Shown here piece by piece: positions 21,703-57,950 of a stretch of 64,000 nucleotides of DNA; positions within the stretch are counted from its first letter, which is position 1; every line of letters begins with the position of its first letter. The stretch comes from Loxodes magnus (lineage: Eukaryota; Ciliophora; Karyorelictea; Loxodida; Loxodidae), in contig CAMPDV010000265.1 in assembly GCA_946699065.1 (NCBI GenBank), forward strand, positions 248,001-312,000, given 5' to 3'. The position numbers and the translations under genes were made by a program. Below the pieces are notes generated by a model. It saw only the letters and a program-made list of their open reading frames with translations. It was not told where the DNA came from and did not search any database.

Positions 21703-21804
21703 TCCTCTTCATACTAAAGTGTTCTAATAAGAAGGAAAATAATAAAAGCTATAATAAATAAAATTTAGGTAAATTGCTTATATCATATGGCTTATATAAT
21801 AAAA

Positions 21805-24291
21805 ATGGAAGTGACTCTTCTATTTTGACTATTAAGTATTTCAATGGCTTGCTAAGATTTATACTAGAAAACTAACAAAGAGCTTATTAAATTTTTAGAA
21901 ACTGATAGATTTGAAGTTGATTAAGAAGTTACTTTCGCAGGAAATAACAATGAGTTGAAAAATAAAAGTGAAATTAATTTTTTTTAGTAAGAATCAGGAA
22001 TAACTGCATCGACTGCAATTAGTTTAACTGATCATTAAATTATGTCAGTAGCATTGATTAAATCAAAGTACTATGCTTTTCAAATCTGAGATCAAAACTT
22101 TTAGATAAAATAAAATTTAAATTTCGTGCCTCCAGAAAACTAATAAGACTAAAATATAAGCAGCATTGAAGTAATAGCAATTGATAGAGGAGTCTTATTT
22201 ACTTATTTCTTCAACTATGAAAATAGTTCAGATATAATCGTAGTTCACTTGAATACGGATAACAATTAATTTACATAATACCTGAAGTTTAGTGAATCAG
22301 CTTAAATAACAGATGCAGCATTAGGTTAATTTTCAGAACTTGGATTCCTATTACTCTATCAAGTGAAGAATGAAAACAATGGATTTTCACTATTTTAAAA
22401 AGAATTAATTGAGTAGGAATCTAAACCTCCCTAGCTAATAATCCAATCTAATGCAGAGATATCCTTTGCTAAAGTTTACATTCCTAACTAAGGACATTTT
22501 CTGTTCTATTAACATAGCGATTTCGAATAAAAGGTTTGAAAGAGTTTATTTTGATATAGTAGTAATGACTCATAAAATATAGACGTTGATGTTAATGTTA
22601 AGGATAGAGGTTCCTTATCTATAGCTTAATTGAGTGATAGTAAAATAATAATATCCTATTAAATATCTATTTACTAATATCTAAAATAGATGGTAATTCA
22701 GTTAACCTCGAATCAATTGATTATAGACAGTTAGGATTAAAAGTAAATGGATATACTATAGAAATGTGCTAATTAAGTATAGGAATTTATTAAGCATTAA
22801 GAAGTTTTACAACTTAGTGATAAATATCATCTTATTACTTTTCAGAGTTAGGATAACTCAGTTTACTCATTAATTTTTTACTAATAAGCTTACTAAAATG
22901 AGTGCCCTTAATTAGGAAACTAATAATACATAGTGTCGGATGTTTCCTCTTTTAAAACTTTACGTATCTCTGACAACAAGATTTTAGTATATTTTACAAC
23001 TGAAGATCCATCTAAGTAATAAATGATCTGCAAAGGATAAATTCATTAATATTAAGAAGATGAGAGGAACTGAATCGAATCACACTATATAGAAGTGATT
23101 ATTCTTATTGAAGTACATTTCCTAATGTTAATTTTCATTTTTATGCTAAATCGAAGGGTAAAGAAGAATGAAAAGTAAGAAGTTTAACCCTAATTTGTAT
23201 ACAACTAATTTGCAAAGAGAGAATACTAGTTAAACTAGGTGGGGTCCGATTAATAATCTCGTGATACTGAAAGTACTTGGACAGACCGAGCTCAAAAGAT
23301 ATGGATTCTAAGCTTTGAAGACGTTAATGAGTGCTTTAGTAAAAATGATTTAATTAGACAAACCAGGTAGGAAAAAGTATTCAAAGGGATAATAAATTAA
23401 GTTTAGGTTTTAATCTTCTTCAAGAAAAACTTGAAAGTCCCTGATTAAATAGAAGATTTTGTAGAATAAATAGAAAAGCTATAAAGAAAAGGCTGCGATA
23501 ACTTAATTAAACTATTAGGAATAAGTTACGATCATGAGGTGATATTCATCACAGAGTACATGCAATATAATTTGCTTGACATTCTCTATCCTTAAAACAT
23601 CCTAGACAAGAAGGATCTTCCCTTTATTGCCTATTAAATAGCAGAAGGAATCGATCATATACACTCTTGTATTGGAAAGTAAATTCATGGAGATTTAAAG
23701 CCAGAAAACATTTGAATGGACGAATGTAAAAATGTAAAACTATCAGACTATTTCATTTCAGATTTTATTTAAAAAACTTAAGCCAAAAACGATGAAAAGT
23801 TTAAGTACCAGGAATTCCCAAACTATACAGCTCCTGAAATATTATTAGGAAGCAAAGTGACACAAAAGGTTGATATATGGTCATTTGGTTGCATTTTAAG
23901 AGAATTATACATATTAGAGAGGCCATGGCAAGAATTGAATTAATACTAAATTCGCTATAAGGTTAAATAAGGAGAAATTCCAGATTTAAATGAAGTTAAA
24001 AATAAGAAAATCAAATAGCTAATTGAAAATACCTTAAAGTATGATTAGGATGAAAGACCAGAAGCATAATAAATAATGGAGTATTTAAAATCTTAAGTCA
24101 ATGAAAGAAAAAGTAAAGCAAGAAGTATAAAATAAATCCAAATAGAAACAAAAGAAGACTCTCACGAAAAAAAGAATCCAAAATAATTAAGCCAAAAAGA
24201 TTTATTTTTAGAAGAAATGAAATAAACATCCTAAGACATTAGTTCATCGTAGAATACGAGCGATCGTGGAGAAACTAATAATGTACGTTGA
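21805..24291 (+). CDS. Receptor-like pseudokinase (left copy)
   Basis: An 828-residue type I membrane protein. A signal peptide (MEVTLLFWLLSISMAC) is followed by an ectodomain of about 410 residues that I do not recognise. A membrane segment lies near 430-450 (IEVIILIEVHFLMLIFIFML), then a juxtamembrane stretch and a kinase-fold domain at about 497-770. Conserved kinase structure is kept: HGDLKPEN near 628-635, NYTAPEILLG, and VDIWSFGCIL. The glycine loop is gone, VAIK is not recognisable, HRD is HGD, and DFG reads DYF (LSDYFISDF). It is therefore probably catalytically dead and acts as a scaffold or allosteric partner. The Trp after ENI in the catalytic loop is a TGA codon. It is followed 1.1 kb downstream, on the same strand, by a related receptor kinase with intact motifs. 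An in-frame ATG 18 bases upstream (21787) is an alternative start. Confidence 0.88.
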
Positions 24292-25422
24292 GAAAACAGT
24301 AAAGTTTATAAAAGTTAAAGCTTATTAAAAGGATTATATTTTTAAATATTCTCTTATAAAATAGTTAATTTCTTAGTTTTAAACTGAATAGCTAAAAAGA
24401 GATTAAGTAATGAAAGAATAAGCGTTTATTTTGGATGAATCATATGTAGTTGATAAACATATTTGATTAAGTAACTGATATTTAAACTATAAGAATGAAT
24501 AGAAATTTCTTAGGATTTCTTTTAGTTAGATTAAAGAAATAATAAAGACTTGATTATAATATTTAGCTTAAAGTAGTTTGAGGTTAATATAAGAGGATTA
24601 TTTTTTAAAAAGATTTAAATTTAATAACCAAATAGCTAAAATAATAAAATAATCAACATTAATTAGAATACACTACACTCAAAATAATAATTAAAAGGCT
24701 ATTTCAATAAACAATAATTTTAAAGTTAAAGTCTTAGGAATTAAACATAACTAAGCAATAAAGAGATTTTATTACCAATCTAAATTTTAATTAAATTAGG
24801 CTTTTCCTTAAATAGGAAAGGTACCACATTAAAATAAAAAATTAGTTAAGAGAATATTAATAATTTTATTATTTCTAAGCTTTAATCTTTAAAAGGAAAA
24901 AGAATCTAAGCAATGTCTTTACAGCTAATTGGAATTTCTAACTCTAGTTATTAATATTCAATCATAATTAAGCAAAGAAAACACAAATAAAGGGAGATAA
25001 CTTTCTGATTCATAAATTATTTACTAGCATTTTTTAACGAGTTAGGTTGAAAACTTAATAAGAAAAGGAATATTATAATTATGGCTTTTAGATAGATAGT
25101 GATATAGCTAAAGTAAGGTACTTAGTAATTAAAGAAATAAATATTAATACCTTTTAAGTTTTATCTCCTATTAAAACTAATGAGTTTTAAATTAGATTTT
25201 GTATAAATTAAGATAGCTAAAATAAATAATAGCAAACCAAAGACAGAGATCATATCTAAAATGTATTATATTTAGCAATGTCTAGATAATATATTTGTAT
25301 CCTTTAGTATTTACAAAACTTATTTCATAGACAGTCATATAAATCACTATCTATATAAAATTGTTAACTAGCCATTTATGGATTTACCTTCAATTTAAAT
25401 AAACATAATTTATAAAATAAAG
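24292..25422. other. Spacer between the paired receptor kinases (left)
   Basis: AT-rich sequence with no supported gene. It is as conserved between the two inverted arms as the coding parts are, so the arms' identity does not reflect protein constraint. Confidence 0.6.
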
Positions 25423-27774
<2,352 letters not shown>

Positions 27775-28308
27775 TTTGGAAACATTCTTCAAAATTTTTT
27801 ATTTACTTCATTAATAAATCTTAAAAATTATTAAGTTCTATCATATGATTATATCACATCACAACAATATATTCAATACTTATAAGAATTTATTAAAGTA
27901 TTTTAAAGTTCATATTTAAGGGGAAATATTTTAGAAGATAATTATTTTAACATGACAATAATGAAAAAAATTAAAATGTTTTAGAAAAATTTTAGATAAA
28001 AATTTTGATTTAGAAGAAGAATCTGGGAAATTTTCGTAAAGTACTAGGAATATCTAAAGGATTTAGATGCATATTTATTTTTAGGATATAATTATTTTTG
28101 TATATTATTAAATTTAAATAGAATTATCATTATTAGTTCTTAGTATTTGAAGTCTTAATAAATTTTTCTATTTTGCTTTAAAAATCATTTAGTCTAGTTT
28201 TATTAATTTTAACTTTTTCTCAAATTGATATTTCGTCATATGAAATTTAAAATTTTAAAAGTTTTCTTTTATTTTAATACAAAAATATCTTTAGTATAAG
28301 CATCTTTA

Positions 28309-28790
28309 TTAGTTAAATTTTATAATTTTAACTATGTTAAAATAATTAAAGATAGAATTTAATTTATGATCTTTTTCTCTAAATTTTTCAGCTATTTTTT
28401 CAAATAATTTAAAGAATTATATTAAATTTATTAGCTTTATAACTTTACTGTTATTATTAGACTATAATGCACCTATCTCCTTTAATCTAAACTGAATTAA
28501 GTTAATGATTCAATTATTTCTATCTTTAGGAATTGATATTCTTTAGTCTTTATCAACAAATGATAAACTTTAGACATGTTCTTTCAAACTAACATCTTCA
28601 AAAAGATTTTCTCAGTGTAAATTAAAAGTGAATTTAGTTAAGATTCTCTCATAGGTAAAAACAAGTTAGTAAATAAGCTAGACATTTTTAAAGCTAGAGC
28701 CTCTACATCTTATTTTTTTAGTTATTTGGTAATTGGAACAAAATATCTAATAATTTAGTAAAAAGTGACTTTCAAAGGAAAATAGATTTA
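28309..28790 (+). repeat. Diverged inner flank of the inverted repeat, left
   Basis: Beyond the sharp end of the near-identical arm, this stretch still aligns with inverted 50860-51344. Shared words include CCTATCTCCTTT, AATTAAGTT, AGATTTTCTCA and AGAGCCT, at roughly 60-65 percent similarity by eye. It is AT-rich with no evident gene, apart from the open frame trailing the receptor kinase. Confidence 0.6.
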
Positions 28791-28839
28791 ATCTATTAAT
28801 ATTATATAGTGCTAATATTTAAATCCTATTAATTATAAC

Positions 28840-29808
28840 ATGCTTAGGAAAAATGATTGAAGGTTTCAAGTCAGGCTTCTATACCACCTCTTCCTAAGTC
28901 AAAAAGGAAGGAGGAAGCAAGAAACTAAGTCTTAATAATCTTAGCAATCTTCTCTATCACAACCTTAACCAACACTGAACTAACAACTTGGAATCTAACA
29001 AAACGAACGAAAGCCAACCTTGAAGAATATACACACAGAAAATCCAACCTAAAGCGAAAAACCGAGGAAACTGATGAAGTCTGTTCTCCACCAGGAGGTA
29101 TCAGAGTTTAACCCTTCTGGCCAATGAGCATGGAGTAGCTCATTAAAGTGGTACTGAACCTCCAGGAAGAGGTCAAGAGATTGAAGAAGGACAGTGATAT
29201 GTTGATGGCAAAGCTAGACCTAGCAGAAGGAATTGAGTCAAGACTTATGTCCTAGGAAAGAGATCTTAACGCCTTTTGGAATATATAACAAAGTCAGACT
29301 AACGAATCCTAAAATTAGCTTTAGAAACAGACTGAACTGGATAACAGACTCGGAAAAGTAGAAGAGAAATTGTAAACTTTTAAGAAAGAGTAAAGCGAAA
29401 CTGGAGCTATACAAATGGAAATCGAAGCCTAGAAAGAGCAAACAAATCAAGGAAAATAATTCAAAATAAAAAAGAAATGTTTCTGCTGTGGAAGCGTATG
29501 ACATTTTTATCGGAAGTGTTAGAAATTCTAATAAAAATAAAGAAACTATTGGATAAAAGATCAACAAAAAAAGAAGCAAGAATGAAAAGAATGTATTGCA
29601 ATCCGGATGGTTCAATATACAAGATTAAGATGTAACCAAGGCAAGTTAAAAGGGAAAACCTAGAAAATCCAAGTTCCCAATCTCGCTAAAATTGGGCGAC
29701 CCGAACTTTTATATTTAACAGCAGGGAGCATGAACTGCTGTCTTCTTGACGGGGTTGGAAATCCCTAAAACGGAAAACTTAAAATTAATATTATTATTAT
29801 TATAACAT
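28840..29808 (+). mobile_element. Zinc-knuckle element, copy B
   Basis: One of the best-preserved copies. It opens MIEGFKSGFYTTSS at the ATG at 28853 and continues through a Lys/Gln-rich coiled coil. A CCHC zinc knuckle follows (CFCCGSVWHFYRKC, spacing C-x2-C-x4-H-x4-C; the Trp is a TGA codon), then a C-terminal signature near YCNPDGSIYKIK. The 3' part is non-coding and folded: AAGTTC (29671-29676) pairs with GAACTT (29703-29708) around an inner CCAAT/ATTGG stem, and CAGCAG pairs with CTGCTG (29719-29740). A GGG/CCC hairpin follows. The element ends in an (ATT)n run at about 29789-29803. It has a few breaks and is treated as a fossil of low to moderate age. Confidence 0.8.
29650..29808 (+). 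ncRNA. Structured 3' end of element B with (ATT)n tail
   Basis: Three nested or tandem hairpins followed by an (ATT)n run. An (ATT)n or similar tail after a stem-loop is typical of elements copied by a LINE reverse transcriptase through recognition of the RNA 3' end. The neighbouring LINE could be the source of that activity (inference). Confidence 0.6.
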
Positions 29809-31455
29809 CGTTAGTAGTTTGCTTAATGTTCCCTTAGTTTCTATTTTTATTCTTTAAATTTAATTTTTAATAATCTAAGCTAGCCTTTCATTCCTTACTA
29901 GAGCTTAATATTAGACATCTAAAATTTATTTAAATGCTTTAATATAACTATTTTATCATTTTTTCTTCTTAAATTGAATCTTTAAATAAAATTAATAAAA
30001 ATTCTGACTATCAAATAAAACCCAGAGCAAGGTTTTGAAGCATCTGACTATATAATAATTATATATCTTTTAAATAATTCTTTTTCCTCAAAATTAAATT
30101 TTAAATAAGACTGGACTAAAAGGAAGAAATAGGAATAAGTTTTAAATATTAAACAGTTTTGAATAATTTAAATTAAAGCCTTATATAAATTAGATATATA
30201 CTTTATACTATTTACTTAGAAATATAAAAATACTAAATTATAAAAATATAAACAAATAAGTAATTTAATTTAAATAATTGTATTGTATAAAAGATAGTAG
30301 CATCAGCTAATTATTATATAATATCCATTATTATAATATCAAAACTATTTAAATAAGGCTACTAAATGTATATAGTACAAATCATTTTAAATAAGAATGT
30401 TTAATAGCCATTATTGAATATAATTCTATTATACAGTTCTTTAATTCTATTAATTATAGTTACTAAATTCATAGTGCTTAAATAATAAATTACTAGTTGA
30501 AAGTATTAAAATCATAGATAATAAAATTAATAATATTTGTAGATAAGATAATAATGAAAGAGCAGAACAGTAATTATATAATCATAAAAACTTAAATATT
30601 ATAATTTTAAAGTAAATATTAAATTATTTTTACAATAGAAGTATAAATATTTCCTTTAAAGTCATATATTACAATAAAAATTACTATAATTGATATTAGT
30701 ATAAATTTAATTATTAAATTAAAACTTATATCTCTTTTTAAAAACTTAATAAGCAAAGAAGTAGAATATTCAATAAATATATTATTGGTTTTAATTTTAT
30801 CCTCAATATACTTTTACTTACTCTCTAATTAATAAAATAATTTATTTATATTATAAACTGAAAAATTTAGCTTTATCTAAGATAAAGGTAAAAAGTATAA
30901 TTTATTCAGATTTTTTTTTAATTTTTCAAATTATTTTTTATTATAAATTAAATCAATTACTAATGTCTAAAATCCTAATTTTAAAAGTGAATATAACTTG
31001 TAAAATTTAATTAATAATATTAAATAAAATAAATTAGATATTCATTATAAACATTAACTTAGTTAAATAAAATTTTATTAATTTCGATTAAATAAAATAG
31101 CTATATTTATTAATAATTACATTGTTGAAATTAAAATTATTAATAGTACTCTTTTAAGTTTTCTATGTCAAACATTCTTTTTATACTTTCCTTCCTTTAA
31201 AGTCTTTTAATAATCTCGTAGAATATTATAATCTGCATTATCTTAAATTTTCTCTTTTATATATATCTTACACAAAATTTTTAAATAAGTTAGAATTTAA
31301 ATAATATTAAAAGAAGCATTATTCTATTTAATTTAATGTAAAAGTATTTATATTTATTCTTTAAATTTTTAGTGATTTCTATATCTTTGGTTATAACTTA
31401 ATTTATTAAATTATATTATAGTATTTTTAATTTATTCTTGTAAAAGTTTAAATTT
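29809..31455. other. AT-rich intergenic stretch
   Basis: About 1.6 kb of AT-rich sequence between element B and the end of the kinase-RING gene. I see no gene in it. Confidence 0.45.
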
Positions 31456-34114
31456 TCAAACGTATAACTCTTTAGCCTCTTTTAACTTGTTTTGATCGCA
31501 ATCGCTAGGATGAAGTGGCTCCATGCATAAATTGCAAAAGTCAGCCTAGTCTTTAGAACATAATGGAACTCCAATATAGTCGTTTACTATTAAAGCATTA
31601 AAAGCACATTTGACACATTTTTTAGCTTACTCTTGTTAATTCTAATTTTCATTTTATCTTACTTATTACACCCATTAAAAGACTTATTATTCATATATAC
31701 TCATTAAAATTTATATCTTCAATTGGAGTCCTGCACTATAAGCATATTAAATCTTGCTTTAAAACTTTATCTTGTTTAAACTATTAAGCAAGATATTCAT
31801 TTAAGCAAAGTTTACATATGATATGATTGCAATTTAAAATTATCAATTGTAGGTTATTTCTATAACATTAATAGCATTGCTAAGCTATTTAATTTTAATT
31901 ATTTATTTATTTTATAATGGGAGCAATTTATGGCTAGTTAAAATTCTGGTTGGTATTTTCTAAATTTTGAGGAATAATGTTTGGATTTCCTTAATATATT
32001 TAGCCTCCCATTGGAAGTTAATACTATTTTTGAGTCTCTATTTACTTCAGTTAAAACTTAAGTTTACTATTTTCTTACTCAAGTTCCTTTTGACTTTGCT
32101 AAACTTATTGAATAAATAATATTTTTCCTTTATTTTCATCTCTGAGTTGCTTTATTTCGTTTTGCATTATTTATTTATCATTTTAGAATTAAACATTTTA
32201 GTTAGTTAATTATTTTATTTAAGTTACTTACTCCTCATTTTTAACAATCATCTGTGTTTTAAAAGAATTAAATTAATTAATTTGATTTAAATATTCTTAT
32301 ATTTATTGCTAGTTTCGATCGTTCAATTGTTTTGCTTACGTATTTTAAATTTGCATTTACTCAAATTATCCACTTTTTTATTAAACTTATTCTAAAAGTT
32401 GTTTATTATACAGATCCATTTTCTGAATTTGGTCTTTCATTAGATTTATTTCATTCTATTTTTAGTTTCATTAATTCTGAAACTATTCGTTTTACATTTT
32501 TATTTAGTCTTCATACTCTTATTTTTGTCTCTAAATTTGAATCTGAAGATTACTTTCTTGCTAATTCTTTTATATTAATTCCTAGCTTACTTTTTATTGC
32601 TATTTTTAATATGTTTAGAGATTTTACTCACTTTGATTCAAAGAGATTTTAGTCTATTATAATTCCTACGATAGCTGCTATATTTGATTCTATATCAAAA
32701 TTTCTTTTTTCTTATATCCTATAATTTTTTATCTACTTACTTTTTAATTTTCATTTATTTGATTAAAAGATTCTTCTTTTTTAGCAAATTTTTCATTGAG
32801 ACTATCTAATTCTTAATTTTAATGGCTCAATTATAGTTTTAAAGTGTTATTTTCGTATTGAACATCATTTGCTTATTATGTTAAAGTTTATACCTAATTT
32901 TCTATTATTTTTACTCTTTTAACTTCTTATCTTAAATCTTCAATATTTTAATTTAATTAAATAATTATTTCACCTTTTTCTTTAATTTCCTTATTAAGAT
33001 TATTTATTTCTTTGCTTTTTTGACTAAATTAATTATTTAAATCTTTGATTTAGACTTGTGGATAATTGACTTCTTATGATATCTATTAAGTACTGATTTT
33101 TTAATTCTGAAACTCATTAATTTACTACTATATGGATTTTGCTTCGACTGTTTTCTCCTCATTTAGCGCAACTAAATATTTTATATTAGATTATAAATTT
33201 TAATCATTTTCTATATTAATTTATGAGTTTTATTTAGATTCTTCTTATTCTAATCTGCTTTGTGAAATCTAATTATTTTGAATAGTCTCAAGGTAATTTA
33301 TTTTGCTTTAGTTTAATTTTTATAATTCACCTATCAACTTTTCCAATGTTAAACGATTACTTGGATTATGCTACCAACAACCCTAAATCAGTTCCTTAAA
33401 CTACTCTGGACAATTCTCAGGAATTTCCTCTCTCTCCCCTTTTAATACTCCCTTCTCTATAAACTAATCCTCAGCATACACAAAAGGTGTTTTTCTAGCT
33501 GCTATTTCCCATAATATCATCCCCAAAGCATAAATATCAGACTATTTACTATAATTTGGCCTCAAATTCATTAATTCTGGCGCCAATCAACGAATATTAC
33601 CTACAACTTGCTTTTAAATTATAGATTTTGATTCAGTACGCACTCTCGATAGTCCAAAGTCAGTTATCTTAGCTCTCATAAGACTATCCAACAATATGTT
33701 GTTGCTTTTTAAATCTCTATGTATTATGTTTTTCTCATGCATATAGTCTAAACCTAAAACTATATCCAGACTTATTCTATATCTCATTTCCCATGATAGT
33801 TCTTCCTTCTTATGTAATAAATTGAATAAATTTTAAGGAAGATACTCCATTACTAAACTTATCGGAGAAAGGCAATATCCGTACACTGTTGCTACATTAG
33901 GATGCTTTATTTTTTCAGTAATTATAACTTCTTATTAAAACTCTTCTATTGCATTCTCAGAAATATTTTGATTGTAAAGCTCTTTAATTGCCACTTCAAT
34001 GCATCCTCTTCACAATCCTTTGAAAACTACCCCAAAACTGCCTTTAGCTATCTCCTTTACTTTTACAAGATTATGACTTGAAATTGCGAACTCTTGATTC
34101 ACCTTAGACACCAT
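31456..34114 (-). pseudogene. Kinase / coiled-coil / RING-IBR gene, left copy, frameshifted
   Basis: A paralogue of the intact gene at 60686-63178. The kinase domain is complete and typical of the TKL group: GSFGVVFKG loop, [32 protein letters not shown] and MILWEI. A Gln-rich coiled coil of some 430 residues follows, then a C3HC4 RING (CQQCYQC ... LNCNHIICKLC ... CLQC). Just past the RING, near 31690, one extra base relative to the sister gene shifts the frame by +1. The remaining zinc domain (KCVKC ... GVPLC ... FCNLCMEPLHPSDC) is readable only in the next frame, up to a TGA at 31456. The distance from start to stop is three times 886 plus one, agreeing with a single-base insertion. Either a recent pseudogene, a protein that ends after the RING, or a base-call error. 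Confidence 0.8.
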
Positions 34115-35979
34115 TAATAACTTTTAGTCAAACATTTCCACAATTAATACAAAATACCAGAATACTTTAGAAAGAAAATAGTCTATCGTATTTTAAAGCT
34201 AAAACTAATATTTATACGAGCAAATAAAATAGGTAACAATCATACTTTATTGCTTGAATATTTATATTCCTCTAATTTAATTACTAGTTTACTTTTAATA
34301 TTTTATTTATAATGAAACTTTTATTTAACTTGCAAATGTTCAATTTAACAAAAGTTAAACCATTATTTTCCCTATTAATGATTAATAAATTTTTAGTATG
34401 CATTGCTAAAACTATTTAAAGTGAAGATAAAACTTAACTTCTTTTTTAATTTGATAATAGATGTATTTTTATTATTTTGAATCTAATAAATAATACAATC
34501 TTAATTTTAAATGAATGTCTAACCAATATTTTCTATATTGCTATTTGAATAAAATTTATATTTACCTAGCTATTATACTTTTATATTTAAGCTTATACAT
34601 TAAATAGCTATAAATACTATAAATAGTTATTATTATTTAAATTTAATTTTTAAACTATATCACATTCCAATAAATATATTGCACAATAACATTATAATAG
34701 TTGAATGTAACTATAAAGTCATTAATCATGGAATAAACTAGATGAAAGGCAAAAAATATATCTAAATTACTAATAGCAAATTAAATAAAGCATTAAAAAT
34801 ATAGCAAATCTCAAATAAGCATAAATAAATGAAATTTTATTCAAAACTATCATAAGTTTATTATATAATATCTATCATTAGTTATTTATTAATTATTGAA
34901 ATATAAAAGCATCATGAAATAATATTAAAAGGATTAATTAAGAAGTGTTAATTAAAATATTTAGTTTAAAAATAAAAAAATGTATAAAAGATATTCCTAT
35001 TAATATTATCTGCATAATTAATAAACCATTTTATTTAAGAAATTACTAAAAGTTTTAAATATTTTATATATAAAAGTCAATTTTATAATTGAAGCATTAT
35101 AGTTTGAATTCTAATTTCAGTTTAAAGTTAATATTTATAATTTAATTAATGACAGAATAGTAAAAGGAATATAATTATAATTTGTAAACAATTTTATTTA
35201 ATTAACTACATTTTTCTTTTAACTATCTTCTTCGATTTAGAAATGATTTTAATTTTATAATAAATTAATAAAATAAATTTATAATTTATTTAAATACTTT
35301 TAGTTTAATTATCTTATAATAATAATTAGAAATAAGCTGAAAAGAATTAACGTATGTTTAAAATTATGTAAAGTAATTAAAAAATAAACCAAATAAAGTA
35401 AAATTAATTTTATTAAATCCAAATGTAAATAATTTCATCAAATTAAGATATAATCAAATATTTTTCATATCTTAATATTTTTACTATGATTATCAATTAT
35501 TCTTATAGAATAAAATTATGGTTTTTTTTATTTAATTTAGAAAATTAATTAAATTTTTGCTAAGTATAAATAAATAATTTTTTATAAATTTAGATTAATT
35601 TTTTAATTAATTAGCAAGAGTATTTTAGAATTAAAATAATATTATTATAAAATATATAAATTATATCTATAACTATTACAAACTAATTTTACTAAAGAAT
35701 ATTTGCATTTTCTAATACATAAAGTTAATATACTTTAAGATTTTTTAATTTAACATATTATTTTATATATTTTTTATTCTATAGCTTCTAATTTAAATTA
35801 TCTAATCTAAAATATTTATTTGATGCTTTTATTTCAAAAAACCTATCTTACAGATTTTGTTTATATTTAAGAAAGATGAATGAATTAATTATTTAATTTA
35901 CGTGATTTTACCTTTATTTGGTTAATCACAAATCAAAAGTTTAATGTTAAATAAAAGAAACTTCATATTTGCTTGGATC
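34115..35979. other. Upstream region and AT-rich gap
   Basis: The first 180 or so bases are nearly identical to the sequence upstream of the sister kinase-RING gene (63179-63360), so the promoter region was copied or converted with the gene. The rest is featureless AT-rich DNA. Confidence 0.55.
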
Positions 35980-41997: not shown

Positions 41998-42033
41998 ACT
42001 TGAAGAAATAAACATGTATTGAAACATTTATTA

Positions 42034-42407: not shown

Positions 42408-42560
42408 CATAGTTGTTCAAAGGTGAACAACAAGGGACGGCTTCATCAGAGGTTGGGGAAGCTAAGTACCCATAATCGACTTTATGTCTTCCTCTGCTTT
42501 GGTGATGCAACGAGATGTAATCCTGCCATGTCCTTGAACCTCCAACAAGTATTAAAGATC
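42408..42560 (+). ncRNA. GC-rich structured RNA candidate 1
   Basis: An island of near 50 percent GC in AT-rich DNA. CAAGGGAC near 42431 can pair with GTCCTTG near 42530, enclosing CATCAGAGG and CCTCTG-GTGATG arms, and GTTC-GAAC forms a small hairpin at its left edge. I compared it by eye with 5S rRNA (a GGAAGCTAAG word is shared), SRP RNA and RNase P and could not assign it. The strand is a guess. Confidence 0.4.
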
Positions 42561-42579
42561 ACGAGTATTCTGAAATTAT

Positions 42580-43650: not shown

Positions 43651-43654
43651 AGTT

Positions 43655-44480: not shown

Positions 44481-44954
44481 CATCTAATTAGGCTGTAAAA
44501 TGAAATAATAAATTAGAAAAGATTCTGCAGAATTACTATTTAATTATATTCAGCTATACCTTTAATTCCTTCAAAATAATATTGGAATATTTTGAGATTT
44601 ATTATATATAAATAAACAAGGTTGATAGAAACTATTAATATTAGGTATTTTTAAGATAACTAAGCAAAAAAATATCAAATATTCTGAATTGCGATACAAA
44701 ACTAAAAGACTTAATTAAACAATATTCTTATAAAAGAAAATTTATTCATTTTGATAAAAAATATTAAAATTTTTTAATTATGACACGAGAAATCAGTTCC
44801 TAACATTGGAATCAACCAAAAAATTATAAAAAATATTTGCTTATAAAAGATGTATTATTTATACAAAAAGTATTACCAATATATAAATGAGTTAAAAAAG
44901 AAAAAAAATTAAAAAAATAAGCTGATTTTAATTAATTAATTTTAGACTTAAAGA
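44481..44954. other. AT-rich stretch
   Basis: No feature seen. Confidence 0.4.
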
Positions 44955-45236
44955 GTTTTGGACTGCAACTTCTTGCAGTTTAACGACCCCAACACTCCCT
45001 TCATGGGATAACGGGGATATCCTGTTGCTTTCGAAAAGCAGCTGCCAGGGAGCTCCATCACTATGGGCAGCCAGGCTTCAAGCCCCTACCAGGAGTGGAT
45101 AATCAAAAGGAAGGCGTTCCCTTGCAAAGGTTGACTTTGACCAGGGACTTTCTCAGCGACAGGAAAGGAACTTTTTCCTAGCCATAAAACCAGAAAGTAT
45201 GATTCAGAAGGTCAATCTCAGCTCCCACCATCTTTT
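44955..45236 (+). ncRNA. GC-rich structured RNA candidate 3 (about 280 nt)
   Basis: The most GC-rich island in the window. Perfect or near-perfect stems are easy to see: ACTGCAA/TTGCAGT with a CTTC loop, CCCC-TCCC/GGGA-GGGG nested, TTGCTTT/AAAGCAG around CGA, GGCTT/AAGCC, CTCC/GGAG enclosing it, and GGAAA/TTTCC near the right end. A short T run follows (ATCTTTTT near 45230). The size suits SRP, RNase P or MRP RNA, but I could not find their signature loops. It could also be the structured end of a mobile element. Plus strand is preferred because of the T run. Confidence 0.5.
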
Positions 45237-45529
45237 TAATTATATAAGCTGATTTTATAAAATGTAATATTTGATCTGATAAAATCATTGCTAGAATTTT
45301 CACATTAGATTATAGAGATTTAACAATATTTTAGTTTATCTTTTTTCAAAATTTAGGTTTTCTGTCTCTGTTATACTTATACATTCAAATTCTTAAAATG
45401 ATTCTCACATTGAAATGTGTGACTTTAATTAAAAACATAAGTAGAGGTATTTTTCTATATTTTAGTAAAATAAGATAAATTTTGTATTCTTTATATTTTA
45501 TATAGTTCTTAGAAATTAGTAAAAATGAA
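45237..45529. other. AT-rich stretch
   Basis: No feature seen between the GC island and the next element copy. Confidence 0.35.
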
Positions 45530-46330
45530 AAAGGATTTTCGATTTAAAGAGATGAAAGTATATAAAAAAGATGTCAGTATTCAGATCTTGATTTTTATAG
45601 TACTAAGGAAATTATAGTTAACAACATCCTAGTAAAACAAGGAGCAGGAAAAGGACTCCAAAAAAGTACCAATCAAATCGAGAATCCTTCCTCTGAAAAG
45701 AAGCTTAGAAATAGGATAAAAATATTTTTGCTTTCGGAAGTCTCGAATTCCACGTTTGCAGAAATAAACAATTATTAGCTGATTTGGTCCTAGATATCCA
45801 GAAAGAGATAAAAAAATTAAAGAAAGACAGTAAGAAATTTATAAGAAAAGCTTTAATTAGCAGTGGAAATAGAATCAGGACTCAAAATCTAAGAAAGAGA
45901 TCTTAGTACCTTCTGAAAATTTTCACTAAATCAGAACGACCATTCATAGCAATAGTAGTAGTAAGAATTTTGCAGTAGAATCGAAAAAGAAAAAAATCAA
46001 TAAAATTGCAGCGTTAAATGGAACTAAGAGAATAAAGGAATTACTCAATGATAATCGAAGAAGAAAAAATAAAAATTTAAATTAAGCAAGAAGCAAAATA
46101 TTATAATACTATAACTCTAGAATGCATCTTGAAAAGTGCTGGAAATTTTATTACTTCAAATAATAATACTGAAACTGCTAGACAAAGTTAAAGAAACAAA
46201 AGAAGAGATAATATTTGATATAATTTAAAAGAGAAATAGAAAGATTATTCTACAACAAACTCAGACATTTATTATTTTTATAAATTCGAATACGAATGTT
46301 ATTAAGAACTTTTATCTATTTTTATATCGA
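45530..46330 (+). mobile_element. Zinc-knuckle element, copy E (diverged)
   Basis: The coiled-coil part around 45790-45920 matches copies B and C (the LKKDS and AEGIESRL-QERDL blocks can be followed), and a decayed knuckle region lies near 46110-46140. The N-terminal signature is not obvious. Broken and older than B and D. Confidence 0.6.
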
Positions 46331-46717
46331 TCGCCGATGAATAGGGATTAATGAAAAATTTTAATGACTATATCCATTATTTTTTAATTTTTTACTTTTC
46401 CGAAAAGTTTTGAATGTTAAAAATATTAACAGTTTTGCAAAGAAGTATCTTCAAGAAGCAAAAATAGCATTTTTTTTCTAATTTTATAACTTAACATCTC
46501 TATTTTTATTAAATTAGATTTTTACGTTTTTTCAAGATAAAAAGGTTATTATTTAAATTACTTAATTTTTCATTCAATTTATATATATTCATTTTAATGT
46601 TTTAAGAATATATAATAGATTACCTTCTTTTGGTTTTATTTAAGTTTCGGAAGGTATTTAAATCGTAATTTTAATTCATGAATCTTTAGTTAATTATTTC
46701 TATTAGTCAAAATGCTT

Positions 46718-46767
46718 TATAAATAAATTGGATTTTAGAGTGCGTAGCACTCGTAGGTGCGCAGCTT
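46718..46767 (-). repeat. Short hairpin repeat, copy 2
   Basis: Minus-strand copy of the unit at 42034-42090: AGCTGCGCACC, a short loop, GTGCTACGCACTCT, then the AT-rich trailer. The sequence between here and 47065 may be the body of the element it terminates. Confidence 0.55.
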
Positions 46768-47065
46768 TTTAAATTAGATTTATTTAATGTCGAAAAATAA
46801 AATTTAATGGGTCTCTCTATCCTTGCTTTCTCTTGCTGTAGTATGTCCGTGTAATTTTTCCTTCCGAAACATAGGATATAATATGCGATTACGGGTATAT
46901 CTTTCCTCGACCTATAATGAAGAAGGTTTTTTCCTGGCATTCAGAGTTTTAGTTTGTCGAATCTTCCTTCTCCTGTTGATGGTTTCTCTTTCTCCAGTTT
47001 ATCCTTCGTCCGCGCTCATTTTTTAGTTGCCTTGCTGGGCCTCCAAGCAGCATCCGAAGGAAAAG
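46768..47065 (-). other. Moderately GC-rich unit ending in the hairpin repeat
   Basis: Less AT-rich than its surroundings. The minus strand starts with ATGAGCGCGGACGAAGG and is open in two frames giving charged peptides (MSADEGQTGERETINRRRK or ERPIKFYFSTLNK further on). It ends in the hairpin repeat. Possibly a short non-autonomous element or a remnant knuckle-family copy. Not assignable. Confidence 0.35.
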
Positions 47066-47929
47066 GCTTTCCACTCTATTTAAAAAATATATATAATAAT
47101 GCTGTTCAATTTCAAATGCTTGATCTCTTCTGCAAGTTTAATTATTTTTAAATATATTTAAAATCAGATATATTATGTTAAATATCTCAATACTACTAAT
47201 GCTGACTTGACCTTTTCACAAATTTCTAAAATTGGAAGATTCTTGTGAATGAACAATTTTCTTTTTAAGTTTTTTTACTTCATTAGTTCCTTTTTTTGGA
47301 GCTAAAATTATTTTCGTTTCCTTATTAAATTTTTATCCAAGAATATTTACTATTTTTCCTTAAGTATATTTAATCTTAATAATAATAACAATTAACTATT
47401 ATAATTTAATTATTTTGTTTTCCTATTGAATTTATATAATCCATCTATTTAGCTATAATGCAGATCTATATTAAAATTAGCTGACTTATTTCTTCCTACT
47501 TTTATTAAATTTATATATTTTAAATTAATGCTTAATAAAGAGTATAAAGCTATATACCTTACTTAAAATTTAAGTTTAGATTACTTAAATAAATCCATCA
47601 ATCTTTTTTTTAGCTCAGTATAGTACTAAAAAAATTTGAAATTTGGAGAAAATAAAATATATAGAAGATTTAATTTGTATATGGAGTTTTAGTAGCATTA
47701 TAAGGCCAAAAAAATGAAAACACAGTAAATTGGATGAAAAAGTGAAAGATCATTCTTAGAAGAATATAAAATATATTATATTATATAAGAAAGAATAGAT
47801 AAGATTATTTAAATTTAATAATTTAAATAACTAAAATAATTATAATTTAAAAGCGTAAATAAACTTACAAGTGATATAATGATTTACTATATAATTAAAA
47901 AAAGAGGACTGTATTATTATATTGAAATA
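47066..47929. other. AT-rich stretch
   Basis: No gene or repeat identified. Confidence 0.4.
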
Positions 47930-49222
47930 CAATACATTTAGGAAATTTAAGGATTGAAAGGGTAACAACTTTTTAGTATTTAGGTCTTATAATAGAAGAG
48001 AATATCAGTTTTGAAAAAACATAGAGATTAGACTAGAAAGAGCATAAAAGATTTAAACATGAATACTGGGAAAATAAAAGTGAATAAGGGAATAACATCA
48101 TCAACACAGGAATGATGCTAAAAACTTTCGTTAGCTCAGTTTTTAGCTATGGGACAGAAGTGATTCCATATTGAAAATAATTTATAGGAAAGTAAATGAT
48201 GGAATAATTAGAAATAATATAGAGAAGACTTTTACAAAATCATCAAAAATGCCCCTTTTAAGTGCAAAATGAGATTTTAGAACATGAACTGTAGTTTATG
48301 AAATTTAAACGTTACTTATGACAGAAAAAGTTGAGATTATGAGGTAGATTAATAGTATATTATATCTAACATTAATAAAATGGAATAATAGGTCCGTCTT
48401 TCAAAAAACTAAATAAGGAAAGCAAGAAAGCAAGCGACGAAAGAGGAACTAAAAAATAAAGACAATAATAAGAATCTAGCTCTTCACCTGAAGGAAAAAT
48501 AATGATGGGTCCAGCTGAGTCAGTTAATCCACAAATTTAGAGTAACGACTTCTTCAATATTAAACTGAAAAAATGAAAGCAATGATCACTAAATAAGATG
48601 AAATGATATTCAATTACGGAGATCGAATTCGAGAACTTATGGATTGCATCGAAGATTAAAACAACGAATTAAAAATATTGAGAAGCTAGCTAATAAAAAG
48701 TAGTTTAGTTACAGAATAGTAATTATGAGAAATGTCATAATCAAATTTAAAAAAATCTCAATGCATGATTATAGAAGAAACTCCAACCCAATTTTAGAAT
48801 ACAGAATAAAATAAACCTAGTTAAGAATAGGTAAGCACGGATTTAACTAAAAGAATTGAACAACTGGAAAATAAAATATTTAAAAAGAAGAACACTGAAA
48901 AATAAATAAAAAATTGTTGGTATTGCTACTCACGGAATCACTTACTAAGACACTGCAAAGAATGAAAGAATTTACAGATAAGAGAAGAGCAGAAAACATG
49001 AACAGCTTTAAATAAACTATGGATTACTGAAAATGGAGTTTACAGACAAAAACTTTTAATTTGCAACAAAGAAAATTAACAGAGGTAACCATCCACTTAC
49101 AAAAAAGGTCTGGGAAGATTTACCACGTAAAAAAATTGGTCTGCAGGTACCTGGTTGAAAGCCCAGCCCAGGGATAGCAAACTTTTATTTAACACTAAGT
49201 TCATTTATTATTATTAAGAGGT
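47930..49222 (+). mobile_element. Zinc-knuckle element, copy F (divergent, long)
   Basis: A divergent member with a long open coiled-coil frame from about 48560, including LTKRIEQLENKIFKKK. A canonical CCHC knuckle follows (CWYCYSRNHLLRHC at about 48913-48955), then LWITENGVYRQ, matching the C-terminal signature of copies D and G. After this comes a GC-richer stretch with CTGGG/CCCAG and CTGGTT pairings (49105-49185), the word AAACTTTTATTTAACAC shared with copies A and B, and an ATT run at 49205-49217. It looks nearly whole over the coiled coil and knuckle; the 5' part is uncertain. Confidence 0.75.
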
Positions 49223-50200
49223 AGATTAATAGGTAACTAAGGAAAAGCAGTAAACGGAATAATATAAGACCTAAGTAAAGAAGAAAACTTTATATTTGAA
49301 TAATATTGCATGGCAATAAAATTAGAATTAAAAATTTAAGACAAAGATATGTTTATAGATGATGGTAATCATAATCAAAAAGTGGAGAAAAGCATTAATC
49401 TTGAAATTAAGAACATAAAACATACGTAGAAGATAGAGAATGAATGGAGGAAATGATAATAAAGGATGTAAAAACACCATTTAAGGATATGTAGTAGGAC
49501 CATCCAAATACCTGAGATAAAAGAAAAACAGTATAGAAGAAAAATGTTAAATATTTAGAATAAGAACGAGATGTAATGGTAGTTAGAATTGTTTAGAAAA
49601 AATTCAACTTGTTGTGAAAAGTCAAGGTTTTTTCTGTAATGATGAAAGAGAAAATAAAGGAGATATAATAGAAAATGGTGTAAAAATATAAAGAAGGAAG
49701 ATATATATGTATCTGAAGTCTAAGATCAATAAGATTAGAGAGATAATAGACGGAATTATTTGTTGATATATGAGATACGGAAAAATTCAAGAAATTCATT
49801 AGAAAATAAGAGGACTAAACAAGATTTAAAACTAGATTGATAATGAAAGATTACATAAAATATATAAAATATATAATAGAAATAGGAAAAGGAAAAGGGA
49901 GGCATAGAAAAGAAAAATAGATGAAAAAAATAGAAAAAGACCATAGAGTAGGAAAAGGATATTTTTTATGAATTTATATGAGCTTTGTTACGAAGAAAAG
50001 AATTGGTAACGAAAATTAGCAATATATGTAAGAAAAAATAAAGGAAGTTGCATTAAAGATAAAATAAAGCATTTTAGATAGAAGAAAGAAGAACAAGAGA
50101 TAATATAGAAGTAAATGATGTAGATATACAATTAATAAGAGAAAAGTTTCAATTTCTTGAAGGCTTACTTGAAGAAATGGACGTATATTGGAGTATGGAA
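49223..50200 (+). other. Purine-rich strand, Lys/Glu-rich frames
   Basis: About 1 kb in which the plus strand is markedly purine-rich and reads as charged peptides in the ciliate code (for example KLELKIQDKDMFIDDGNH near 49320). The stretch ends at the third hairpin repeat. It may be the body of an element ending in that hairpin. No family recognised. Confidence 0.35.
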
Positions 50201-50262
50201 AGAGCTGCTCACCAACGTGAAGCTTCGCGCTCTATAATTAAATTTATATAAAAATAAATTTA
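50201..50262 (+). repeat. Short hairpin repeat, copy 3
   Basis: AGAGCTGCTCACC, loop, GAAGC-CGCGCTCTATAAT, then an A/T trailer, corresponding to copy 1 with some changes in the stem. Confidence 0.55.
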
Positions 50263-50859
50263 TTAAAGTGATACTGCCGTTGTTAGGTTCACCACTATTT
50301 CTGCTCTTGAAACTCTTGATTTCAATACCTTTATTTTTTCATTTTCTAATCCATAATTTAACCTTTTCTTATTTTTTTAAATCAAAATTGAATGCCTCCT
50401 TTTTCTCAATTCTTTCCAATGATGAGTTAGAAGAGAATAGAGGTAATTCAAATATTGGGCTAAAAGTTACAAACAAATTAATTTTTTCTACATAAATATT
50501 TTACTTTGCCTCAGTCAAATCTTTGATATTTTTCGATTCTTTTCAGATTAGCGAAATACAAAGAAAGGAGAACTCGTAGATAATGACTTCGGTATCCATT
50601 ATTCCAAGCACTGATACCAATCCTTTAATCAGCTTCTCGTAACGCTAGAGAGAGCACTCGAATAAGTTAGATTTATTGAACAAAGAGCTTTCCATACTTA
50701 TCTGAAATGCCATCTATTATGAGAGTACTCTTAATGTACTACTCTGTATCAGATTACCTACTTTTCTAACTATGGCTCGTTGTTCATTTTCTTAAAAGTT
50801 ATTTACAATTAAGTTTATTTTTATTTTTTATTTATAAAAATAGAATAAATTTACTTTAT
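50263..50859. other. Unassigned stretch before the right arm
   Basis: The minus strand around 50270-50500 gives a charged frame (ERIEKKEAFNFDLKKQEK). The section 50520-50770 is less AT-rich but unrecognised. Confidence 0.3.
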
Positions 50860-51344
50860 ATCTATGAAGATCAGCTTTTTACTTAAACAATAAAATTGTA
50901 AAACATTTTTACTTGTTCTACCAAATAATTTAAAAAAAGAATAAGAAGAAGAATTTCTAATTTAAAATATAAGGCTCTTATTTGTTTTGTCTTTAACTTC
51001 TGATGCAGTTTTTGCTTCAGCTAATTTTAAATTAAAACTTGAGAAAATCTTGTAGGAAATGTTACTTTGGAATATGTGCAAATTTCATAATTTATTTAAT
51101 AAATATTAAATAGGAATTTCCTGTGATATAGATAGTTGAGTCAAGAACTTAATTAAGATTTGCTAAAAGGAGATAGGTTAGCGTCATTCTAATTTTATAA
51201 GTAAATTAAAAATTTAATAATTTTTATTTAATATTAAAAATGCTAAGAAAGGAATAGATGGGATTTTTAGAATAGCAAAAGAGCATTGTAAACATAATTT
51301 TAATGATCTTTTAATATTTTATCACATTGAAAAAAATTGACAAC
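50860..51344 (-). repeat. Diverged inner flank of the inverted repeat, right
   Basis: Counterpart of 28309-28790 in reverse orientation, strongly diverged, with a sharp jump to near identity at 51345. Confidence 0.6.
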
Positions 51345-51878
51345 TAAAGATGCTTATACTAAAGATATTTTTGTATTAAAATAAAAGAAAACTTTTAAAA
51401 TTTTAAATTTCATATGACGAAATATCAATTTGAGAAAAAGTTAAAATTAATAAAACTAGACTAAATTATTTTTAAAGCAAAATAGAAAAATTTATTAAGA
51501 CTTCAAATACTAAGAACTAATAATGATAATTCTATTTAAATTTAATAATATACAAAAATAATTATATCCTAAAAATAAATATGCATCTAAATCCTTTAGA
51601 TATTCCTAGTACATTACGAAAATTTCCCAGATTCTTCTTCTAAATCAAAATTTTTATCTAAAATTTTTCTAAAACATTTTAATTTTTTTCATTATTGTCA
51701 TGTTAAAATAATTATCTTCTAAAATATTTCCCCTTAAATATGAACTTTAAAATACTTTAATAAATTCTTATAAGTATTGAATATATTGTTGTGATGTGAT
51801 ATAATCATATGATAGAACTTAATAATTTTTAAGATTTATTAATGAAGTAAATAAAAAATTGTGAAGAATGTTTCCAAA

Positions 51879-54230
<2,352 letters not shown>

Positions 54231-55361
54231 CTTTATTTTATAAATGATGTTTATTTAAATTGAAGGTAAATCCATAAATGGTTAGTTAACAATTTTATAT
54301 AGATAGTTATTTATATGACTGTCTATGAAATAAGTTTTGTAAATACTAAAGGATACAAATATATTATCTAGACATTGCTAAATATAATACATTTTAGATA
54401 TGATCTCTGTCTTTGGTTTGCTATTATTTATTTTAGCTATCTTAATTTATACAAAATCTAATTTAAAACTCATTAGTTTTAATAGGAGATAAAACTTAAA
54501 AGGTATTAATATTTATTTCTTTAATTACTAAGTACCTTACTTTAGCTATATCACTATCTATCTAAAAGCCATAATTATAATATTCCTTTTCTTATTAAGT
54601 TTTCAACCTAACTCGTTAAAAAATGCTAGTAAATAATTTATGAATCAGAAAGTTATCTCCCTTTATTTGTGTTTTCTTTGCTTAATTATGATTGAATATT
54701 AATAACTAGAGTTAGAAATTCCAATTAGCTGTAAAGACATTGCTTAGATTCTTTTTCCTTTTAAAGATTAAAGCTTAGAAATAATAAAATTATTAATATT
54801 CTCTTAACTAATTTTTTATTTTAATGTGGTACCTTTCCTATTTAAGGAAAAGCCTAATTTAATTAAAATTTAGATTGGTAATAAAATCTCTTTATTGCTT
54901 AGTTATGTTTAATTCCTAAGACTTTAACTTTAAAATTATTGTTTATTGAAATAGCCTTTTAATTATTATTTTGAGTGTAGTGTATTCTAATTAATGTTGA
55001 TTATTTTATTATTTTAGCTATTTGGTTATTAAATTTAAATCTTTTTAAAAAATAATCCTCTTATATTAACCTCAAACTACTTTAAGCTAAATATTATAAT
55101 CAAGTCTTTATTATTTCTTTAATCTAACTAAAAGAAATCCTAAGAAATTTCTATTCATTCTTATAGTTTAAATATCAGTTACTTAATCAAATATGTTTAT
55201 CAACTACATATGATTCATCCAAAATAAACGCTTATTCTTTCATTACTTAATCTCTTTTTAGCTATTCAGTTTAAAACTAAGAAATTAACTATTTTATAAG
55301 AGAATATTTAAAAATATAATCCTTTTAATAAGCTTTAACTTTTATAAACTTTACTGTTTTC
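54231..55361. other. Spacer between the paired receptor kinases (right)
   Basis: Inverted copy of 24292-25422. AT-rich, no gene. Confidence 0.6.
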
Positions 55362-57848
55362 TCAACGTACATTATTAGTTTCTCCACGATCGCTCGTATT
55401 CTACGATGAACTAATGTCTTAGGATGTTTATTTCATTTCTTCTAAAAATAAATCTTTTTGGCTTAATTATTTTGGATTCTTTTTTTCGTGAGAGTCTTCT
55501 TTTGTTTCTATTTGGATTTATTTTATACTTCTTGCTTTACTTTTTCTTTCATTGACTTAAGATTTTAAATACTCCATTATTTATTATGCTTCTGGTCTTT
55601 CATCCTAATCATACTTTAAGGTATTTTCAATTAGCTATTTTATTTTCTTATTTTTAACTTCATTTAAATCTGGAATTTCTCCTTATTTAACCTTATAGCG
55701 AATTTAGTATTAATTCAATTCTTGCCATGGCCTCTCTAATATGTATAATTCTCTTAAAATGCAACCAAATGACCATATATCAACCTTTTGTGTCACTTTG
55801 CTTCCTAATAATATTTCAGGAGCTGTATAGTTTGGGAATTCCTGGTACTTAAACTTTTCATCGTTTTTGGCTTGAGTTTTTTAAATAAAATCTGAAATGA
55901 AATAGTCTGATAGTTTTACATTTTTACATTCGTCCATTCAAATGTTTTCTGGCTTTAAATCTCCATGAATTTACTTTCCAATACAAGAGTGTATATGATC
56001 GATTCCTTCTGCTATTTAATAGGCAATAAAGGGAAGATCCTTCTTGTCTAGGATGTTTTAAGGATAGAGAATGTCAAGCAAATTATATTGCATGTACTCT
56101 GTGATGAATATCACCTCATGATCGTAACTTATTCCTAATAGTTTAATTAAGTTATCGCAGCCTTTTCTTTATAGCTTTTCTATTTATTCTACAAAATCTT
56201 CTATTTAATCAGGGACTTTCAAGTTTTTCTTGAAGAAGATTAAAACCTAAACTTAATTTATTATCCCTTTGAATACTTTTTCCTACCTGGTTTGTCTAAT
56301 TAAATCATTTTTACTAAAGCACTCATTAACGTCTTCAAAGCTTAGAATCCATATCTTTTGAGCTCGGTCTGTCCAAGTACTTTCAGTATCACGAGATTAT
56401 TAATCGGACCCCACCTAGTTTAACTAGTATTCTCTCTTTGCAAATTAGTTGTATACAAATTAGGGTTAAACTTCTTACTTTTCATTCTTCTTTACCCTTC
56501 GATTTAGCATAAAAATGAAAATTAACATTAGGAAAAGTACTTCAATAAGAATAATCACTTCTATATAGTGTGATTCGATTCAGTTCCTCTCATCTTCTTA
56601 ATATTAATGAATTTATCCTTTGCAGATCATTTATTACTTAGATGGATCTTCAGTTGTAAAATATACTAAAATCTTGTTGTCAGAGATACGTAAAGTTTTA
56701 AAAGAGGAAACATCCGACACTATGTATTATTAGTTTCCTAATTAAGGGCACTCATTTTAGTAAGCTTATTAGTAAAAAATTAATGAGTAAACTGAGTTAT
56801 CCTAACTCTGAAAAGTAATAAGATGATATTTATCACTAAGTTGTAAAACTTCTTAATGCTTAATAAATTCCTATACTTAATTAGCACATTTCTATAGTAT
56901 ATCCATTTACTTTTAATCCTAACTGTCTATAATCAATTGATTCGAGGTTAACTGAATTACCATCTATTTTAGATATTAGTAAATAGATATTTAATAGGAT
57001 ATTATTATTTTACTATCACTCAATTAAGCTATAGATAAGGAACCTCTATCCTTAACATTAACATCAACGTCTATATTTTATGAGTCATTACTACTATATC
57101 AAAATAAACTCTTTCAAACCTTTTATTCGAAATCGCTATGTTAATAGAACAGAAAATGTCCTTAGTTAGGAATGTAAACTTTAGCAAAGGATATCTCTGC
57201 ATTAGATTGGATTATTAGCTAGGGAGGTTTAGATTCCTACTCAATTAATTCTTTTTAAAATAGTGAAAATCCATTGTTTTCATTCTTCACTTGATAGAGT
57301 AATAGGAATCCAAGTTCTGAAAATTAACCTAATGCTGCATCTGTTATTTAAGCTGATTCACTAAACTTCAGGTATTATGTAAATTAATTGTTATCCGTAT
57401 TCAAGTGAACTACGATTATATCTGAACTATTTTCATAGTTGAAGAAATAAGTAAATAAGACTCCTCTATCAATTGCTATTACTTCAATGCTGCTTATATT
57501 TTAGTCTTATTAGTTTTCTGGAGGCACGAAATTTAAATTTTATTTTATCTAAAAGTTTTGATCTCAGATTTGAAAAGCATAGTACTTTGATTTAATCAAT
57601 GCTACTGACATAATTTAATGATCAGTTAAACTAATTGCAGTTGATGCAGTTATTCCTGATTCTTACTAAAAGAAATTAATTTCACTTTTATTTTTCAACT
57701 CATTGTTATTTCCTGCGAAAGTAACTTCTTAATCAACTTCAAATCTATCAGTTTCTAAAAATTTAATAAGCTCTTTGTTAGTTTTCTAGTATAAATCTTA
57801 GCAAGCCATTGAAATACTTAATAGTCAAAATAGAAGAGTCACTTCCAT
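55362..57848 (-). CDS. Receptor-like pseudokinase (right copy)
   Basis: Inverted duplicate of 21805-24291, 828 residues, with the same signal peptide, membrane segment and degenerate kinase domain (no glycine loop, HGD, DYF in place of DFG, but APE and DIWSFG intact). A His-to-Leu difference from the left copy lies in the membrane segment (VHFLML versus VLFLML). The in-frame upstream ATG at 57866 is also conserved. The pseudokinase features being identical in both copies means the loss of catalysis predates the duplication or conversion. Confidence 0.87.
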
Positions 57849-57950
57849 TTTTATTATATAAGCCATATGATATAAGCATTTTACCTAAATTTTATTTATT
57901 ATAGCTTTTATTATTTTCCTTCTTATTAGAACACTTTAGTATGAAGAGGA

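Follow-up and report, generated by a model that had tools for sequence, protein, structure and literature searches.

The analysed window, a 64,000-bp stretch of the genome assembly of the karyorelict ciliate Loxodes magnus (GCA_946699065.1; contig CAMPDV010000265.1, hereafter C265, positions 248001-312000), contains two inverted arms of 6.6 kb, which are separated by a 23-kb loop and are embedded in diverged homologous sequences. Each arm carries two genes on the same strand: K1, encoding a predicted receptor pseudokinase, and K2, encoding a receptor kinase. The components of the arms are as follows (window coordinates):

21703..28308, plus strand: core of the left arm, a probably homogenised tract with sharp edges (34 mismatches and no indel relative to the right arm); probable recipient
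21805..24288, plus strand: K1 left, 828 amino acids, with a signal peptide, ectodomain, transmembrane segment and predicted pseudokinase domain; Pkinase stretch at 23332-24099 (phmmer, with K2), candidate stop codon at 24289
24292..25422, no strand: non-coding spacer between K1 and K2
25423..27771, plus strand: K2 left, 783 amino acids, with a signal peptide, ectodomain, transmembrane segment and kinase domain; best Pkinase stretch of its frame, TGA stop codon at 27772
51345..57950, minus strand: core of the right arm, a probably homogenised tract sharing the core identity and aligning with contig C4651 through its outer edge; probable donor
51882..54230, minus strand: K2 right, differing from K2 left at 17 of 783 residues
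55365..57848, minus strand: K1 right, differing from K1 left at 1 of 828 residues

The genes were translated with TAA and TAG as glutamine and TGA as tryptophan. The published genome description assigns L. magnus to code table 27, in which TGA is read as tryptophan or as a stop (PMC11441545), and the actin genes of the same assembly use TAA and TAG as sense codons, some of them also containing in-frame TGA. Under the bacterial and the standard code, lists of open reading frames of the window contained no entry at 250 and 200 amino acids. A codon-usage gene finder performed weakly (it called K1 and missed K2), and the gene models were fixed by homology. The frame holding both kinases together matched the Pfam Pkinase family with E 4e-88, in two separate stretches. 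K2 carries the main kinase motifs (G-loop, VAIK, HGD, DFG and APE); in a motif alignment, the kinase-like domain of K1 has no VAIK-type lysine and shows DYF in place of DFG. Motif names, signal peptides and transmembrane segments were assigned by eye, and the start codon of K1 was likewise picked by eye, a further in-frame ATG being present 18 bp upstream. Relative to these models, the tract includes 102 bp of sequence before the chosen K1 start codon and extends for 534 bp beyond the stop codon of K2.

Comparison of the left core with the reverse complement of the right core revealed 34 mismatches and no indels over 6606 bp (99.49% identity), which bears out the first claim of an earlier reading of the sequence (the original prediction), namely that the arms are equal in length and nearly identical. 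BLAST joined the arms with lower-identity extensions (21696-28627 versus 57956-51025, 97.98% identity, 27 gap openings), which indicates that homology continues outside the core. An abrupt change of identity at both ends had also been predicted, and a plot of the arms plus flanks proposed as a check. In the MAFFT pairwise profile (100-bp bins), identity was 97-100% in each bin of the core (21700 to 28200) and fell to 62-69% in the two bins adjoining each core end, i.e. in sharp steps and with no smooth gradient. Base-by-base comparison in the outward direction placed the collapse of matching at 21703 and at 28308, the transition spanning only a few bases. The predicted conservation of the non-coding spacer was equally evident: the spacer contains 3 mismatches in 1,131 bp, all of them within its last 78 bp and none in 24292-25344. 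A stretch of 1,332 bp without any mismatch (24013-25344) takes in most of this spacer, and the 534 bp downstream of the K2 stop codon contain 3 mismatches between the arms.

The inverted homology extends from approximately 19.76 to 28.86 kb and from approximately 50.78 to 59.70 kb; beyond these limits none was detected inside the loop, and outside it only one weak 68-bp match was found (E 9e-4). The cores are thus bordered on all four sides by diverged homologous segments:

19760..21702, plus strand: left outer flank, homologous to 57951-59699 but diverged, without the 64 bp just before 21699
57951..59699, minus strand: right outer flank, retaining the 64 bp adjoining the core that are absent from the left flank
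28309..28856, plus strand: left inner flank, homologous to 50784-51344 but diverged, ending approximately at the start of a dispersed repeat (about 28849)
50784..51344, minus strand: right inner flank

Three segments of the left outer flank aligned with their partners at 65.6% (19917-20508, score 150), 69.4% (20841-21234, score 135) and 66.6% identity (21237-21698, score 107), and one segment of the inner flank (28326-28627) at 69.1% (score 113). Among 100 dinucleotide shuffles each, no score exceeded 47 for the outer and 48 for the inner flank, and controls with the sequence reversed gave 44 and 34, respectively. Since the observed scores (107-150) lie far above the best shuffled ones, the homology of the flanks is real. 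Global alignment with five shuffles separated the outer flank by score (143 versus -34 to -100), but not by percent identity (81.7% versus 79.2-82.7%), a measure that is uninformative in this null; the inner flank gave 79.9% and a score of 25, with no matching null in that run. A control based on random window pairs happened to include a genuine repeat (score 182) and was left unused. The dispersed repeat that begins at about 28849 is present in at least dozens of copies among the genome matches listed.

The original prediction had placed the flanks at roughly 60-65% identity. Homology in the inverted sense was found on all four sides, as predicted, with an identity of 62-69% next to the core; the outer flank, however, contains a piece of about 390 bp that is inverted between the copies (20841-21234 versus 58448-58838). 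This flipped piece is the reason why the bins at 20900-21100 drop to 48-55%, and an inversion of about 390 bp has thus taken place in one of the flanks.

These flanks bear directly on the possibility that the arms represent a fresh 6.6-kb inverted segmental duplication, or a mobile element, placed in similar surroundings by chance. Gene units do move within the surrounding cluster, where an inverted pair of kelch genes (4.0 kb, 99.3% identity; see below) has no significant flank homology. An insertion, however, would not leave homologous, collinear and correctly placed flanks on both sides of both arms, and we consider this explanation highly improbable. An inverted-repeat DNA transposon would be recognised by a transposase or by many copies. 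A six-frame Pfam search of the left arm detected kinases; no match to a transposase family was obtained at E up to 1 (three other weak matches were below their own cut-offs), and the number of near copies, among the genome matches listed, is at least two. A transposon or terminal-repeat element was therefore rejected, as there was neither a transposase family in the left arm nor a third near copy among those matches.

The whole assembly (705.73 Mb, 7,843 contigs) was searched for further copies, with only the best candidates being scored, so that all counts obtained are lower bounds. Among the matches listed, there was no third near copy of K1-K2 and no near-identical alternative haplotype of either arm; the best other DNA (65-68% identity) was located on contig C4651, and the next protein matches, all at single loci, reached 31-42% for K2 and 26-35% for K1. 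C4651 contains K1-like DNA at 65-68% and K2-like DNA at 66% identity, in shuffled order and with the same neighbours. The K1 protein match on this contig scored only 74 bits, and the K1-like copy is probably decayed. We regard C4651 as a paralogous region; a very diverged haplotype is possible, although unlikely. Because its gene order is shuffled, comparison of the K1-K2/K3 order (K3 is described below) with C4651 gave no answer as to which arm had been inverted.

The same searches are relevant to the question of whether a single true arm was written twice during assembly, for example by placing its two alleles in two positions. The divergence of the arms (0.51%) resembles the heterozygosity of the species (0.60%), according to its published description the assembly is unphased and had heterozygosity collapsed at a 96% identity threshold (PMC11441545), and short reads would leave the orientation of the loop unresolved. 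On the other hand, the four flanks are distinct and homologous in pairs, which the copying of one read path would not create, and the only other contig with arm-like DNA among the matches listed is C4651, with its shuffled order and best shared blocks that are only 60-81% alike. Such an artefact is therefore unlikely. A palindromic join of two haplotypes was rejected, since the halves of the loop show no homology in the inverted sense; the locus is thus not a head-to-head junction of two haplotypes.

Between the arms, silent differences occur at 5 of 1,647 sites for the part 21703-25344 and at 10 of 1,082 sites for the part 25345-28308 (Fisher p=0.037, the cut at 25344 having been set after viewing the data), i.e. 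a silent divergence of 0.3-0.9%. Heterozygosity values of 0.60% and 0.59% are given for the micronuclear and macronuclear genomes of L. magnus, respectively, in the publication that reports the 706-Mbp macronuclear assembly (PMC11441545). As the silent divergence of the arms is close to these values, the homogenisation event is young, with divergence at the level of allelic variation within the species.

All 34 mismatches are split into 6 in the first and 28 in the second of the above parts (binomial p=1.4e-5), mostly because K2 contains 17 residue-changing codons. In addition to these, K2 has 4 silent codon changes, compared with 1 residue-changing and 4 silent changes in K1 (Fisher p=0.020), which corresponds to ratios of non-synonymous to synonymous divergence (dN/dS) of about 1.06 for K2 and about 0.06 for K1, both calculated from small counts. 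The 17 residue differences of K2, against 1 in K1, could mean that the kinase partner is under relaxed constraint or is diversifying. It might be supposed that strong purifying selection holds the arms alike, and the single change among the 828 residues of K1 would agree with this. However, the spacer and the silent sites are conserved as well, K2 changes freely, and selection gives no explanation for 1,332 bp without a mismatch in and around the spacer. Selection as the cause of the identity was rejected on the basis of the silent and spacer sites, and it is hardly conceivable as an explanation.

The locus thus contains a high-identity tract inside homologous sequence of lower identity on both sides, and the identity reaches silent and non-coding sites. 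Very probably, this structure results from recent ectopic long-tract gene conversion between old inverted duplicates. This is the interpretation given in the original prediction, and it is upheld by the homology on all four sides, the sharp edges, the equal length of the arms and the near-identical spacer; it is further backed by the lack of any other near copy among the genome matches listed and by a 64-bp deletion beside one edge. An old duplication would have generated two inverted copies of a segment of about 9 kb (19.8-28.9 kb and 50.8-59.7 kb) with the K1-K2 pair, and these copies would have diverged until their flanks were approximately 65-69% identical. More recently, 6.6 kb of one arm would have been overwritten from the other by ectopic gene conversion, either intrachromosomal or between sister chromatids, and the 34 substitutions would have been gathered afterwards.

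Several points weigh against this interpretation. The arms and flanks are known from assembled sequence alone. Moreover, mismatch rejection normally suppresses recombination between copies that are only about 65-70% alike, so that a single 6.6-kb event requires one-ended invasion, or else copies that were formerly more alike; that one conversion took place between copies so diverged is less certain than that the arms were homogenised. If conversion was repeated and its ends differed, a shoulder of intermediate identity might be left, and there is none at either edge. Finally, a single 64-bp indel and a single diverged relative are the evidence for the direction of transfer.

The difficulty of mismatch rejection is avoided if the K1-K2 cores have been converted repeatedly since the duplication, the flanks having escaped long ago. 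Such long-term concerted evolution is a sub-case of conversion between the duplicates, and the probabilities of the two overlap; it is possible, though we would not favour it. It does not need to pair copies that are 65-70% alike, the different silent divergence of the first 3.6 kb (5/1,647) and the last 3.0 kb (10/1,082) looks as if two tract ages were overlaid, and a further, older patch is present in K3. In contrast, both edges step directly to 62-69% with no shoulder, and the difference in silent divergence is marginal (p=0.037) and depends on a post hoc cut. In the favoured interpretation as well, earlier conversions may have kept the core alike, which would have made pairing possible for the recent long-tract conversion.

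With respect to direction, it is rather more likely that the right arm was the donor and the left arm the recipient. The 64 bp beside the outer edge are present in the right arm and absent from the left, in which the gap stops 4 bases before the core. In a three-way alignment, C4651 has bases matching these 64 bp, and one deletion in the left lineage therefore explains the pattern. The alignment of the right arm with C4651 continues across the outer edge (56770-58484 and C4651:286-1976, 66.5%), as also seen in the immediate edge region (57934-58053 with C4651:1407-1538, 69.9% over 133 columns). The flank identities of the three copies, C4651 being the only third one, are 68.9% (left-right), 62.8% (left-C4651) and 61.9% (right-C4651); in the flank, C4651 is thus farther from either arm than the two arms are from each other. 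A loss located so close to the tract edge is expected if the copied DNA was end-joined to the left flank. According to this scenario, the left arm would have suffered a break, within it or next to it, that was repaired by copying the right arm; homology would have served to close the inner end, and end joining, with the loss of 64 bp, the outer one. Alternatively, the deletion would be older and would simply have fixed how far the tract could reach.

Ectopic (non-allelic) conversion between paralogues is familiar from the concerted evolution of gene families. The Loxodes tract resembles such cases in being a near-identical, sharply delimited stretch within diverged paralogues, with silent sites included; it differs from the usual ones in its length (6.6 kb, two whole genes), in its strongly diverged surroundings and in its karyorelict host. 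The palindromes of mammalian Y chromosomes, as described in PMC3403216, have near-identical arms with ongoing arm-to-arm conversion. They share with the Loxodes locus the presence of inverted, gene-bearing arms of >99% identity on one chromosome. In a palindrome maintained by conversion, however, the whole arm is near-identical up to unrelated sequence, whereas in Loxodes only part of an older inverted duplication with a 23-kb loop is near-identical, and homologous but diverged sequence still flanks it at either end. Long-tract gene conversion with non-canonical, microhomology-mediated termination has been reported for an engineered sister-chromatid reporter in mouse cells (PMC5104497). Features in common with that description are the copying of several kb, the closure of one end without homology and a loss from the second end, although in Loxodes the mechanism would be deduced from a single deletion of 64 bp next to the edge of the tract. 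Events of this type are known; as far as the literature searches go, the Loxodes example is undescribed, and no paper treating both Loxodes and gene conversion was retrieved.

The locus can be regarded as a clear trace, and one that can be dated, of ectopic conversion over a long tract in a karyorelict ciliate. For this lineage, extensive genome editing is given as undetected in the published account (PMC11441545). If confirmed by reads, it would provide a test case for the 6.6-kb homogenisation of copies whose flanks are about two-thirds alike. It also carries a warning that the identity of paralogues in the L. magnus assembly need not reflect the age of their duplication.

The surroundings of the arms form a rearranging kinase/kelch cluster in which copying and rearrangement are common and are not confined to inverted pairs; mosaics elsewhere in the contig were surveyed in 234 kb of C265. 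One further pair of genes is located within the window:

31601..34240, minus strand: K3 left, a gene encoding a kinase domain, a coiled coil and a RING domain
60821..63310, minus strand: K3 right, partner of K3 left in direct orientation

The kinase domains of the K3 pair (33333-34299 and 62397-63364) share 88.6% DNA identity, compared with about 60% elsewhere in the genes. Within the first 180 codons compared, 147 of the 156 shared residues have identical codons, versus 185 of 287 in the rest, a pattern that points to an older patch of conversion between direct copies. Had the reads been too short to cross an arm, the loop might be shown reversed; the orientation of K3 would then change, and the tract would not. 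The C-terminal part of K3 left (about 1.28 kb, 31637-32913) is 98% like a copy about 46 kb leftward, at window coordinates -14811 to -13538 (C265:233189-234462), the kinase-side flank of which shows no homology to K3 left above the control. The pattern is that of a mosaic gene.

Outside the window, two inverted kelch/ephrin-receptor-like gene units (window coordinates 69928-73948 and 86954-90974) are 99.3% identical over 4021 bp, with 27 clustered mismatches and no indel, and their flanks show no homology above the controls. Other members of this family were detected at 14.7-18.2, 124.5-128.9 and 155.2-159.6 kb. Further right on the contig, at least 22 kb are duplicated in direct orientation (98.3% identity, 54 gap openings), with the duplication reaching the end of the sequence examined.

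A far more speculative view, and a very unlikely one, is that the K1-K2 tract constitutes a functional unit, i.e. a matched receptor kinase-pseudokinase pair kept together by long whole-unit conversions within a rapidly rearranging receptor cluster, with the K2 protein changing freely after each event. If true, this would represent a recognition-type locus in a ciliate, in which changes would be expressed quickly, as the somatic nucleus develops from the germline even in asexual division.

In the survey of the actin genes, 43 of the 96 actin-family matches listed were full-length, with near-equal scores, and were repeated along a few contigs (C266, C437, C524, C707, C711, C1162, C1812 and others), which, as unaligned matches, resemble an amplified actin array. 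Rfam and tRNA scans of the 64-kb window detected only one gene, for tRNA-Tyr (9716-9799), and a glucokinase-like frame (Pfam E 5e-12) is located at 5861-6895.

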